Part shown: positions 35,620-41,916 of the stretch, piece by piece
Numbering within the stretch: the first letter of the stretch is position 1
How the letters are laid out: each line of letters begins with the position of its first letter
Position numbers and translations under genes: made by a program
Assembly: GCA_026397965.1 (NCBI GenBank)
Contig: JAPLTU010000067.1
Span: 1-58,644, forward strand
DNA from: Verrucomicrobiota bacterium
GTDB lineage: Bacteria; Verrucomicrobiota; Verrucomicrobiia; Opitutales; UBA953
Direction of reading: 5' to 3'
DNA length: 58,644 nt
The notes under the pieces: model-generated
Told to the model about the DNA's origin: nothing
The model's input: the letters and a program-made list of their open reading frames with translations, nothing else
The model's database searches: none

Positions 35620-37613
35620 ATGTCGCTCAATAATTCCGCCGACCTTTCCCGTGCCGCCACCGAAGCCCGCGGCCTTGCCATGGACGCCGTGGCTGCCTGT
35701 CATTCGGGTCACCTCGGCCTGCCCTTGGGCTCCGCTGAAATCGGCGCCGTCCTCTACGGTAACTTCCTCCGCCACGACCCCGCGGCCCCGCAATGGGTCA
35801 ACCGCGATCGTTTCGTGCTCTCCGCGGGTCACGGCTCGATGTTTATCTACGGCTGGCTTCACCTCGCCGGCTTTGATCTGCCCCTCGAAGAAGTAAAAGC
35901 CTTCCGCAAACTGCATTCCAAGACTCCAGGTCACCCTGAATTCGGCGAAACGGTCGGCGTCGAAGCTACCACCGGCCCTCTCGGGCAAGGCACGGGTAAC
36001 ATCGTCGGCATGGCCGTCGCCGCTAAGATGGCGGCCGCACACTTCAACACCGCCGAACATAAGATCTTTGACCATATCGTGGTCGGCCTCGCCGGAGACG
36101 GTTGCCTCCAAGAAGGTATCTCCCACGAAGCGGCCTCTTTCGCCGGCCGCTTTGGCCTCGATAATCTCATCATGCTTTACGACTCAACGACGTCACTTTG
36201 GACGCGATGGCTGCGAAGACCCAAAATGAAGATACGGCCAAACGCTACGAAGCGGCCAACTGGGAAGTCTTTACCGTCAAACAGGGCAATGAATTAGGCC
36301 CGATTGCGGATGCGCTGGACCAAGCGCGGGCCAGTAAGAACGGCAAACCCAAGCTAATCATCTGCAAGACCATCATCGCCAAAGGTATCGCCGAAGTCCA
36401 AGGCACCGCCAAGGGTCACGGTGAAGCGGGCGTGAAATTCATCGATGCCTCGCGTCAAGCCCTCGGCCTACCTGCCGAAAAATTCTTCGTCTCGCCTGAG
36501 ACCCGCGCCTACTTCAACGCCCGCAAGGTCAGCCAAGCCGGCGTGCATGCCGCATGGCAGCAGACCTTCGCCGCCTGGTCCAAGGCCAACCCCGAAAAGG
36601 CCTCTCTACTGGCTCAAGCTCAACAGGGTAACCATGGTGATGTTCAAGCCTTGCTCACGGCGATTCCGGAGTTCGGCAAGAACGCGCTGGCCACCCGCGT
36701 CTCGGGCGAAAACTGCATCAACGCGGTGGCTAAAGCTTCGCCTCTCGTTTTGTCCGGTTCCGCCGACCTTCACGGTTCAACCAAGAATTATATTAAAGAT
36801 GCGGGCGACTTCGACCTCGCCACGCCGACCGGCCGCAATCTCTACTTCGGCATCCGCGAACACGGCATGGGCGCGATCCTTAACGGCATCGCCTACCACG
36901 GTATCTTCAAGGGATCTGGCGCAACTTTCCTTACGTTCTCGGATTACCTCCGGCCTTCCATCCGCGTCGCCGCCCTCGCCAAACTCCAAGCGTTTTATAT
37001 TTTCACCCACGACTCCGTCGGCGTCGGTGAAGACGGCCCCACGCACCAGCCGGTCGAAACCGTCAGCGCCCTGCGCTGCATCCCGAACCTCGACGTCATT
37101 CGCCCCGGCGATGCCGAAGAAACGGCGGCCGCATTCGCCTTAGCCGTCTCGCGCCGCGACGGTCCCGTTGCGTTGATTCTTTCTCGGCAAAACGTTCCTT
37201 CACTAGATGTCGTCAGCGTGGCGACCCGCCGGCAAGGAACCCTCAAAGGTGCCTACGTCCTACGTCAAGAAACCAGCGCGCTCACCCATATCCTCATCGG
37301 TACGGGCAGCGAACTCTCGTTGGCGCTGGCCGCCGCGGAAGAACTCGGCGCGGGCGTCCGCGTCGTCTCCATGCCTTCCATGGAAATTTTTGCTCGTCAA
37401 CCCAAAGCCTACCAGCAGGAAATCTTGCCGGCCAGCTGCGTTAAACGCGTGAGCATCGAAGCCGGAGTCACTCTCTCCTGGGGCCGCTACGTGGGCACTG
37501 CCGGCACGGCGATTGGCACCGACCGCTTCGGACTTTCGGCCCCCGGCGACGTGGTCATGCGCGAAATGGGCATCACCAAAGAAGCCGTCATCGCCGCCGC
37601 CAAGGCCCTCTAA
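35620..37613 (+). pseudogene. tkt: Transketolase, frameshifted by one missing base
   Basis: Transketolase moves two-carbon units between sugar phosphates. The first 188 residues (from [18 protein letters not shown]) and the last ~475 residues are in different frames. The break is at about 36185: the sequence reads GAC TCA ACG ACG TCA, while the expected frame is GAC TCN AAC GAC GTC ACT TTG GAC, i.e. one base is missing after GACTC. Restoring it gives about 664 residues, the normal length, with [11 protein letters not shown], the D-S-N-D-V-T metal-binding stretch, HGMGAILNGIAYHG, FSDYLRPSIR and the GVGEDGPTHQPVE region intact. The break lies in the TPP/magnesium motif. Either a true mutation or a sequencing error; there is no homopolymer or slippery heptamer. 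Confidence 0.85.
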
Positions 37614-39276: not shown

Positions 39277-41916
39277 TTATTCTTCGCTCACGACAAACTC
39301 ATCCTCCCGGCCGCGGGCCTGACTCCACCGTGCCATAACTTCATGCAACGGAACGGGGCGAACCTTCTGCCGTAGATTGTAATCCCCCGCTTCCAGGCAG
39401 GCCTTTAACTGCGCCCAGACAGCCGCATAAGAGCGGCTGAAACGGAGCGATCCGTCGCGTACGAGACTGGAAATATGGCAACAGCCGCCGATTTCCGTCA
39501 CCATGAAGCGACCGGCTTTGAGTTCCACTTCGTTGGTCGTCCGCAAATCAAAACGCGCAAAATGCAGCCCAGGGAAACGCTTCGCGAAATCGCTAAGAGC
39601 AGCGGTTAACTCCATTGTGACTAAATCCGGACGATGGAGGCAAAGGGCACCGTGACCGTAACTCCCAGAAAGGTTGAGTACCACGATTTCGCCGGCCGGC
39701 ACCACCCGATTCAGACCCTGGGCGTGACATTGCGTGAAAAGCTCCCCTCGCGACACCGCGATGTCATCAAGCCAAATGAGTTCCTCCAAAGTCTGCTCGC
39801 CATCGCCCATCACGGTCACGTTCTTCTTCTGGACGACCGCCATAATCCGTCCGTCATCGAGTCCCGGATTGCGGCGCCAGACGATTTCGAACTCGGAACC
39901 GGAAATCTTCTTCTGCAAAATAAAGTCTTCCTTGGCCGTACGCACGAAGCGCTCCAGCTGCTCGGAGTTCTTCAGGTAACGTAGCCCGGCACCATCCTCG
40001 GCGACTTCGGGTTTGAACACCAAGGGAAACCCGTGGCAGACGGCAAAAGCCTCCGCTTCTCGCACGCGCACCGCGGGCGTATCCTCCAGCGTCAACGCCA
40101 GGCTGGGACAGCAACGGGAGTCACGTTGGAACGGTCGTAATAACAAAGATTTGGAATCGCCGATAAACCCGCCGATGCGGCCGAAAGCCGGATTGGCCGA
40201 AGCAAAAGCGGTCAGACGACGGTAACGCAGGCTTAAAATCAGGATGCCGATTTTGACCGGAAGGAAGAGCAACCAGGACGGCCAATAGGACGGCTGCAGG
40301 AAGTTCTGGATCTTCATCACGATCTGTCTCCGTCCGCGCCAAGTGAGGGCCGGCAGGAACCAATGCGTGATCAGATGCAACGCGAAGAAGAAACCCAGAA
40401 TGACCCACAAGGCATTGTTCTTGAAGCGGTAGAGCACATCCATCGCCGCGGCGCCGTAAGTATAACCCAACCACATCAAGGGTGGCGTCCAGATCAAGGC
40501 GGCAGCCAATAATAAGAATCCTAACCGGAAGAAATTCAGCTTCATGATCCCGGCGGTGATGAAGGTAGGTACGCGGCTCGCCGGGATGAAGCGGGAACTG
40601 ACGACCACCAACATGCCCTTCGGGGTGGAGAACCAACCGGCCCATTGGTTGACCTTATGCTCCTTAATGAACCACTTGAGGGGCACCTTGCGAATCGCCT
40701 TACGTCCCCAGAATCTGCCTAAAGAGTATAAGGTGACGTCGCCGATGAAAATTCCCAACGTGCACGCCGCGACGGCAGACCAAAAATCGATGATGCCCAC
40801 CGACACCATCAGGCCCGAAGCCAGGCAGGTGGGATCTTCCGCCACAAAAGTACAAATCGTAATGATGATTAATAAAATCCAGAAATGCGAACCCTGCGCT
40901 TGCGGGATAGGCGGATCTTTTTCGGGCGAGCCGACGGTGATTGCAGATGTGTCCCGCGACTCATCGATGAATTTGTGGACCTTGGCGGCAACTACCGCTG
41001 GCTGCTCAAAGGCCACATCGCGTCCTCCGTCCATCAGTTCGAGACGTGCCTGCGGAACCAACTTAGCCGTGTATCGGGCGGTGTCGGGCGAAGTCATCCA
41101 GTCGTTCTCTCCGTGGATTAGCAGCAAAGGCTTACGCCAACTGCGTAAGATCTTCTTCGAATCGGAGAGGTCGGTATCGAAAACGGTCTTCGCATAATCC
41201 CGATCCCAGGGTAACAAATCAGCGACGCCGAAGTTAGGCGTGAGCCGTGAGATACTCCAAAAGAAAGCCCCTTGGAACCCGTAGACGATCTTGTTCACCA
41301 AGGGATTGCCGAGCATTTCAAATTCCTGCACGCCCGGGGCCGAGATTAATGTCATCGTCTGGACGCGACTAGGATGGGCGGCGGCTAATTCTAAAGCAGC
41401 AACGCCACCCAAGCCCTGTCCGACGACATGATAACGTTTTATCCCATAATATTCCATCAAAGAGGCCACCACCTCGGCATTAGCTTCCATCGCATGGCTC
41501 GGCACCTCGCCTGGACTCGTGTTAAACCCAGGCAGAAAAACTTCGACAACGGAATAGTCCCCCTGCTTCGCAAGCTCTTCGCACAACAGATGTCCGCGAC
41601 GGTCCCACGGCACGCGGTGCAAATAGACGATAACGTTTTCGCGGAAATGTTCGGTGGCGCCCACCTGCGCCTCCTCGAGACCCGTGACGCCATGGAGGTG
41701 TGCGCGGACGGGAATCTTATAATCGAGCTGCTCGACCTTATTCCCCTTGAAATCGAAAGCCGGCACTTGGATGGGCGTACCCTGCGAATAACGTTCGATG
41801 ACGTTGAAGAAGGGGAAGGCGGCGGACAGCCCTAATAATATCAAATAGGCGAGTACGCCCCACCATTTCCCAGGAACCCTCCCAAGGTTACGCTTGCGAT
41901 CAGCGGAGGTTGGCAT
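39277..41916 (-). CDS. Fusion of degenerate alpha/beta-hydrolase, DedA (VTT) membrane domain and ATP-grasp-like domain
   Basis: The protein has 879 residues. A transmembrane helix (WWGVLAYLILLGLSAAFPFF, 18-37) precedes an alpha/beta-hydrolase-like domain (about 90-320) whose nucleophile elbow reads G166-Q-G168-L-G and whose His position reads R299, although Asp272 is retained (HGEND). A DedA/SNARE-associated membrane domain follows (about 345-570): GIFIGDVTLYSLGRFWGRKA and SSRFIPASRVPTFITAGIMKLNFFRLG. The end (about 600-850) looks ATP-grasp-like: LVFKPEVAEDGAGLRYL, FILQKKISGSEFEIV, ARFDLR and MVTEIGG. DedA proteins flip or carry lipids such as undecaprenyl phosphate; ATP-grasp enzymes activate carboxylates. 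The function of the fusion is unknown; an envelope-lipid or cell-wall modification role is an inference. Confidence 0.7.
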   Translation of the reverse strand: MPTSADRKRNLGRVPGKWWGVLAYLILLGLSAAFPFFNVIERYSQGTPIQVPAFDFKGNKVEQLDYKIPVRAHLHGVTGLEEAQVGATEHFRENVIVYLHRVPWDRRGHLLCEELAKQGDYSVVEVFLPGFNTSPGEVPSHAMEANAEVVASLMEYYGIKRYHVVGQGLGGVAALELAAAHPSRVQTMTLISAPGVQEFEMLGNPLVNKIVYGFQGAFFWSISRLTPNFGVADLLPWDRDYAKTVFDTDLSDSKKILRSWRKPLLLIHGENDWMTSPDTARYTAKLVPQARLELMDGGRDVAFEQPAVVAAKVHKFIDESRDTSAITVGSPEKDPPIPQAQGSHFWILLIIITICTFVAEDPTCLASGLMVSVGIIDFWSAVAACTLGIFIGDVTLYSLGRFWGRKAIRKVPLKWFIKEHKVNQWAGWFSTPKGMLVVVSSRFIPASRVPTFITAGIMKLNFFRLGFLLLAAALIWTPPLMWLGYTYGAAAMDVLYRFKNNALWVILGFFFALHLITHWFLPALTWRGRRQIVMKIQNFLQPSYWPSWLLFLPVKIGILILSLRYRRLTAFASANPAFGRIGGFIGDSKSLLLRPFQRDSRCCPSLALTLEDTPAVRVREAEAFAVCHGFPLVFKPEVAEDGAGLRYLKNSEQLERFVRTAKEDFILQKKISGSEFEIVWRRNPGLDDGRIMAVVQKKNVTVMGDGEQTLEELIWLDDIAVSRGELFTQCHAQGLNRVVPAGEIVVLNLSGSYGHGALCLHRPDLVTMELTAALSDFAKRFPGLHFARFDLRTTNEVELKAGRFMVTEIGGCCHISSLVRDGSLRFSRSYAAVWAQLKACLEAGDYNLRQKVRPVPLHEVMARWSQARGREDEFVVSEE

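Follow-up and report, generated by a model that had tools for sequence, protein, structure and literature searches.

The question raised by this locus is whether one long frame, read on the minus strand of the window (the whole stretch of DNA analysed, 58,644 nucleotides), encodes a membrane machine in which the flipping of a lipid carrier is coupled to a ligation step. An earlier note had proposed such a machine, built from a dead hydrolase, a DedA protein and an ATP-grasp-like domain. Based on the observed modules, their linkage, the loss of catalytic residues, the absence of partner genes and purifying selection, we consider that the 879-aa protein may well be a catalytically degenerate version, specific to its lineage, of a widespread membrane module of ATP-grasp, DedA and, often, hydrolase parts, a reading that we hold with about even confidence.

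One frame with three modules

Positions 39277-41916 of the minus strand form a single open frame of 879 codons, with the ATG at 41916 and the stop codon at 39279-39277. The main features are as follows.

39277..41916, minus strand: complete CDS, 879 aa, with a TM anchor and alpha/beta hydrolase-like, DedA/VTT and ATP-grasp-like parts (frame, Pfam, full-length homologues)
41797..41868, minus strand: N-terminal TM anchor, residues about 17-40 (hydropathy and charge count)
40945..41634, minus strand: alpha/beta hydrolase-like domain without nucleophile, residues 95-324 (Pfam, phmmer, Foldseek)
40408..40887, minus strand: DedA/VTT domain, residues 344-503 (Pfam PF09335)
40228..40284, minus strand: hydrophobic segment 545-563, N-terminal to the ATP-grasp core (hydropathy, comparison with stand-alone proteins)
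39352..40104, minus strand: ATP-grasp-like domain, residues 605-855 (family profile, conserved residues)

Pfam placed Abhydrolase_1 at residues 113-196 (E 1.3e-15) and VTT/DedA at residues 368-485 (E 1.5e-10, above cut-off), while the ATP-grasp end stayed below every Pfam cut-off. Distant NCBIfam matches were found to UptA-type DedA (6e-14, the best DedA match) and to cyanophycin synthetase (1e-6). AlphaFold models, built from genus-level alignments for the whole protein and for its C-terminal domain, reached a mean pLDDT of 47, and the Foldseek matches obtained from them are weak support, a fold hint at most. The residues ahead of the TM anchor are positively charged (five K/R, one D/E); the N-terminus is predicted from these charges to lie inside, and therefore the hydrolase domain outside, the inner membrane. 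Compared with the nearest relative, which is 96% identical, dN/dS was 0.07-0.09 in all three modules.

The gene looks monocistronic in the source genome: a RuvC-like gene on the plus strand meets it end-to-end, and an ApaG-like gene stands head-to-head with it (both named by reading the ORFs). Elsewhere in the window, the transketolase at 35620-37613 is read as two overlapping frames of 225 aa (35620-36297) and 471 aa (36198-37613). In the 96%-identical relative (L053) it is a single frame of 664 aa, and the split is, judging by this comparison, a frameshift of the assembly or the strain.

Recurrence of the fusion

The fused protein was found, in full or in part and without internal stops, in 34 of the 37 genus genomes searched (source genome counted); the three genomes lacking it are 83-90% complete. 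Four other families of the order yielded full-length relatives of 29-33% identity in a first search, and in later searches the fusion recurred at about 30% identity in further families of the order and of the phylum. The parts recur in three arrangements, namely hydrolase-DedA-ATP-grasp, DedA-ATP-grasp and a stand-alone ATP-grasp.

Thus, Pfam, the family profile and the recurrence across genus, order and phylum bear out the claim of the earlier note that three genuine modules sit in one membrane protein. The fusion is neither chance nor artefact, given a stop-free frame across the genus and four families and a dN/dS of 0.07-0.09. A frame wrongly joining separate genes is ruled out by the same fusion in dozens of genomes; the sole split copy (L052) is broken by a run of N in the assembly. 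The conserved fusion is the product of a widespread, undescribed gene module: neither DedA with ATP-grasp nor the set NRDE/DinB/ATP-grasp/VTT/YHS is described in the open-access full-text literature, which, with one DedA survey of other fusions (PMC10127716), is the basis on which novelty was judged. The fusions in that survey join DedA to rhodanese, PAP2 or pyridine-nucleotide oxidoreductase, partners that differ from the hydrolase and ATP-grasp found here.

The hydrolase-like domain

The fold of the first module is that of an alpha/beta hydrolase according to both Pfam and Foldseek (probability 1.00, TMt about 0.6 (0.63), from the low-confidence model). The phmmer matches were 8pzg (3e-7) and the alpha/beta hydrolase PlaF (PDB 6i8w, 3.6e-7). 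PlaF has one N-terminal TM anchor; the 879-aa protein differs from it in lacking the Ser and the His and in being fused to DedA and ATP-grasp. Membership of the OlsI family (NF052614) was rejected, the score being 32.9 bits against an equivalog cut-off of 385. The triad positions are occupied as follows.

41413..41415, minus strand: residue 168, nucleophile position, Gly (GQGLG) in place of Ser; Gly in 31/31 genus sequences
41101..41103, minus strand: residue 272, triad Asp kept; Asp in 31/31 genus sequences
41020..41022, minus strand: residue 299, triad His position, Arg; in the genus Arg in 24 and His in 7 (n=31)

The Ser-Asp-His triad of an active serine hydrolase is hence replaced by G168, D272 and R299, exactly as had been read from the sequence, with the caveat that seven of the 31 genus sequences carry His at 299. 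Glycine at position 168 is also present in both other genera of the host family. Outside this family, the fusions of five families (f8, f14, f20, f21 and f22) and most of those of a sixth (f84) retain the Ser, mostly together with Asp and His; independent loss of the Ser was found in f81 and in one f84 genome. The loss of the nucleophile, and with it the description as a dead hydrolase, therefore holds throughout the host family and fails as a trait of the fusion. Non-cutting, binding pseudo-hydrolases of the alpha/beta hydrolase fold are known, e.g., the neuroligins.

Two further observations concern this domain. In the f81 copies (L172, L173 and L174) the nucleophile is lost (ANGHA) and the ATP-grasp metal motif is intact; the f81 genomes carry DinB and NRDE at another site, which in one of them (G440) is near a second ATP-grasp copy. 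In one sub-clade of the source genus (L026-L030), dN/dS of the hydrolase-like domain was about 0.36, compared with 0.08 for DedA and 0.10 for ATP-grasp.

The ATP-grasp-like domain

A profile of the C-terminal domains of 24 relatives matched two solved enzymes across about 200 positions, glutathione synthase 7ta5 at 2e-11 and cyanophycin synthase 7txv at 2.2e-11, and the alignment takes in both the GDG motif and the metal motif E-x-N. Similarity to the ATP-grasp superfamily is accordingly a property of the domain family; the source domain alone passes no Pfam cut-off. With the cyanophycin synthetase and GshF glutathione synthase ATP-grasps it shares this profile match and the GDG..TL..LI motif, as well as E-x-N in the relatives; unlike them, it is membrane-anchored, joined to DedA and devoid of E-x-N in the host family. 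The hydrophobic segment 545-563 is, by comparison with stand-alone ATP-grasp proteins, part of this module, because the same segment precedes them.

On the adenine and phosphate side, K635, Q668 and E675 are kept. Of the Mg ligands (Asp and Glu-x-Asn), D790 and E808 are kept and the Asn is replaced by Gly.

39472..39495, minus strand: degenerate metal motif E808-x-G810 ... I815; E-x-N ... E in relatives outside the family (alignment)

All relatives outside the host family that cover the motif keep E-x-N and the following Glu, except for one divergent, apparently broken copy (L181). The source genus has E-x-G followed by Val, Ile or Ala (two sequences have Asp at the Asn position and one lacks the Glu), the sister genus g22 has G/S-x-K followed by Thr, and the third genus of the family has E-x-E; E-x-N, the Glu that follows it and the hydrolase Ser are lost in all three. 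That the ATP-grasp part would activate a carboxylate, as the earlier note proposed, is consequently doubtful for the 879-aa protein, since a motif that is near-universal elsewhere is lost throughout its family. Nucleotide binding or weak catalysis may nevertheless persist, since K635, Q668, E675, D790 and E808 remain.

Could the host-family enzyme still ligate by means of a re-wired metal site (Tyr753, His755 and E808-x-G), so that only the hydrolase of a coupled ligation machine is dead? The near-invariance of Y753, H755, G810, E808, D790, R788, K635, Q668 and E675 across 30 genus sequences and the dN/dS of 0.09 in this domain are consistent with such a site. However, g22 lacks the Glu as well and the third genus has E-x-E, so that the site differs from genus to genus in the way expected of a non-catalytic one; almost all relatives from outside the family whose sequence covers the motif retain the Asn, and the partner genes of the module, described below, are gone. 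We regard an active ligase as improbable.

The DedA domain

The second module scored 42-48 bits with the VTT profile, against a cut-off of 33.9, and a DedA profile searched against the PDB gave no significant match. The DedA identity (VTT above the Pfam cut-off) and the ATP-grasp identity (family profile, 2e-11) assigned by the earlier note were both upheld.

40834..40839, minus strand: D361, aligned with the Asp of the PGD motif in the canonical DedA paralogue of the same genome (alignment, genus conservation)
40573..40593, minus strand: R442 and R448, the Arg pair of the second re-entrant helix (SRFIPASR; alignment, role of the positions from PMC10127716)

Residue roles in COG0586 DedA proteins, including an essential Glu 12 residues before the PGD Asp, are taken from PMC10127716. 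R442 and R448 correspond to Arg130 and Arg136 of the second re-entrant helix. Of the acidic pair of YghB (Glu39 and Asp51), the equivalent of Asp51 is D361 and the Glu39 position is hydrophobic. An extra acidic residue, E360, stands beside D361, giving ED in place of the GD of the canonical paralogue. D361, R442 and R448 are invariant in the genus (both Arg in 31/31), and the acids of the re-entrant tip and both Arg are nearly invariant in all relatives. The domain thus shares with COG0586 DedA proteins (UptA, YghB/YqjA) a VTT profile above cut-off, the re-entrant-tip Asp and the two Arg, and differs from them in the missing Glu and in its fusion to two enzyme domains. As the Glu39 position is hydrophobic despite the matching Asp and Arg residues, it is by its residues a divergent DedA and not a textbook COG0586 member.

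These features bear on the reading that the DedA part recycles UndP as COG0586/UptA proteins do, with the ATP-grasp as an envelope peptide ligase attaching amino acids to a substrate that is UndP-linked or resembles peptidoglycan, like the ATP-grasp relatives of D-Ala-D-Ala ligase. The kept Asp and Arg positions (PMC10127716), the best NCBIfam DedA match to UptA (6e-14) and the D-Ala-D-Ala ligases ranked first by Foldseek with the low-confidence model all point in that direction. Against it, the Glu essential in COG0586 is replaced by a hydrophobic residue, a separate canonical DedA is encoded in the same genome, and no recurring cell-wall genes were recognised beside the module, where GNAT/PlsC acyltransferases do recur. 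We therefore consider a role in UndP recycling unlikely.

The canonical DedA lies on contig C28 of the source genome (G000; loci L162 and L183), where a 603-aa frame also holds a GNAT (PF13444) gene; the two are about 10 kb apart (at about 8.0-8.4 kb and 18.7-19.0 kb). The 603-aa GNAT protein is probably OlsF-like, and the genus may on this account still be able to make an ornithine-type lipid.

Partner genes and separate-gene forms

Neighbourhoods were counted at 48 loci outside the family of the source genome. DinB-like genes and NRDE/TANGO2 genes each lie near the module at 28/48 loci, and one or both at 34/48; YHS was found at 10/48, DoxX at 7/48 and an OlsB/OlsF-type GNAT or PlsC acyltransferase at 9/48. 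In Vibrio sp. THAF64, VTT, ATP-grasp, DinB, NRDE, YHS, DoxX and PlsC-GNAT form one close-packed row. PlsC-GNAT fusion proteins occur in the module at L121 6574-8352 (593 aa) and L156 11280-13049 (590 aa), their hosts being a verrucomicrobial genome and Vibrio sp. THAF64. As the acyltransferases alone among these neighbours belong to a known pathway, that of ornithine lipids and related aminolipids, this genomic context points to an aminolipid link. A minority of the loci show it, and the source genome's family has no acyltransferase neighbours, which speaks against the aminolipid reading. NRDE and DinB were absent from 9/9 host-family genomes tested (94-99% complete) and present in 9/11 other genomes sampled.

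In Proteobacteria, the organisms named here being drawn mainly from plasmid records, the parts are also found as separate genes. Paracoccus denitrificans has the ATP-grasp (PDEN_RS24485), hydrolase (RS25810) and VTT (RS24475) as separate neighbouring genes, as does P. ferrooxidans, the Paracoccus VTT gene being on the strand opposite to the other parts. The P. denitrificans hydrolase has an intact GYSYG; by sequence, the Paracoccus hydrolase belongs to the same superfamily as the fused domain and is a candidate counterpart rather than an established orthologue. The VTT and ATP-grasp genes lie side by side in Salinivibrio and Vibrio, and Azospirillum has a two-part VTT-ATP-grasp fusion. This Rosetta-stone pattern of fused versus adjacent genes indicates that DedA and ATP-grasp act jointly, often with the hydrolase as a third component. 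Of the proposed coupling between lipid movement and ligation, the functional link is therefore supported in Verrucomicrobiota and Proteobacteria alike; the relatives are a better fit to the coupled machine than the 879-aa protein is, as the latter's family has lost the E-x-N of the ATP-grasp and the Ser of the hydrolase.

History of the host family

In a tree of the DedA and ATP-grasp alignment, from which the catalytic columns were excluded and in which two host-family genera were sampled, the host-family members fall into a single clade with support 100 and a long stem, beside Ser-intact fusions of the same order. Given this single clade and the absence of the partners from 9/9 family genomes, the losses of the partners, the Ser and the metal motif would most simply be placed at the base of the family. 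The idea that the Ser and the partners were always lost together was rejected for the tree as a whole, as f81 lost the Ser independently yet keeps DinB and NRDE elsewhere in the genome.

Small genomes, the loss of both catalytic sites and both partners, and the faster evolution of the hydrolase domain in one sub-clade (dN/dS 0.36) might suggest a decaying relic, i.e., a former aminolipid enzyme of a reduced genome that is heading for loss and retained by chance. This is very improbable in view of the full-length frames in most of the genus, the low dN/dS of every module against the nearest relative and the invariant DedA residues. The loss pattern, taken with the dN/dS of 0.07-0.09, suggests that the protein took on a different role and is not decaying.

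Proposed function and significance

Within the reading of a degenerate member of a widespread module, we infer the lipid substrate, the reaction, the topology and the direction of transport. In the ancestral form, a membrane-anchored cytoplasmic ATP-grasp would form an amide linkage on a substrate of lipid or fatty-acyl type, the product being most likely an aminolipid. DedA would carry this product through the inner membrane to the opposite (outer) face, where the hydrolase-like domain would de-acylate or trans-acylate it. As judged from charges, the N-terminus would be inside, the hydrolase outside, and the ATP-grasp inside by way of its hydrophobic anchor segment. Flipping coupled to ligation fits this ancestral form. 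The acceptor need not be a lipid, as the nearest ATP-grasp relatives, by sequence, make peptides (cyanophycin and glutathione). In the host family, what remains would most likely be a DedA lipid transporter flanked by two binding or regulatory domains, which may bind nucleotide or lipid and regulate or guide the DedA carrier. The 879-aa protein is hence more likely a non-catalytic lipid transporter or scaffold, although here, too, we infer the biochemistry.

Known systems offer partial parallels. MprF couples lipid aminoacylation to flipping in one membrane protein; it is tRNA-dependent and its folds differ, and by this description it would be an analogue of the fused module in the way it works. 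For planctomycete ornithine lipids, an ATP-dependent N-acyl-ornithine ligase (OlsH) and an alpha/beta-hydrolase O-acyltransferase (OlsI) have been described (PMC12493201), a precedent for the joint production of ornithine lipids by an ATP-dependent amide ligase and an acyltransferase of the alpha/beta-hydrolase fold. The pairing resembles that found here; OlsH, however, is GH3-like and not an ATP-grasp, no DedA is mentioned there (PMC12493201), and the hydrolase here matches OlsI weakly, as given above. With OlsF and OlsBA, the module has in common that GNAT (PF13444) and PlsC-type genes adjoin it in several genomes; these are neighbours and not part of the fused protein, and they are not adjacent in the host family.

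A bolder version, which we offer tentatively and think possible rather than probable, is a synthase-flippase for non-phosphorus lipids. It would consist of ATP-grasp, DedA and an anchored alpha/beta acyltransferase with DinB-like, NRDE/TANGO2, YHS and DoxX accessories, resembling MprF but built from unrelated parts, and the host family would hold a double pseudoenzyme turned regulated lipid transporter.

The module bears on the substrates of DedA proteins beyond UndP. A DedA tied or fused to an ATP-dependent ligase, near aminolipid acyltransferases, provides a testable route to non-UndP cargo, and such tests are feasible where the parts are separate genes (Paracoccus and Vibrio). It would also place NRDE/TANGO2 and DinB-like proteins in a context. 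The host family, finally, is a natural experiment in which the flippase was kept and both enzyme sites are gone.
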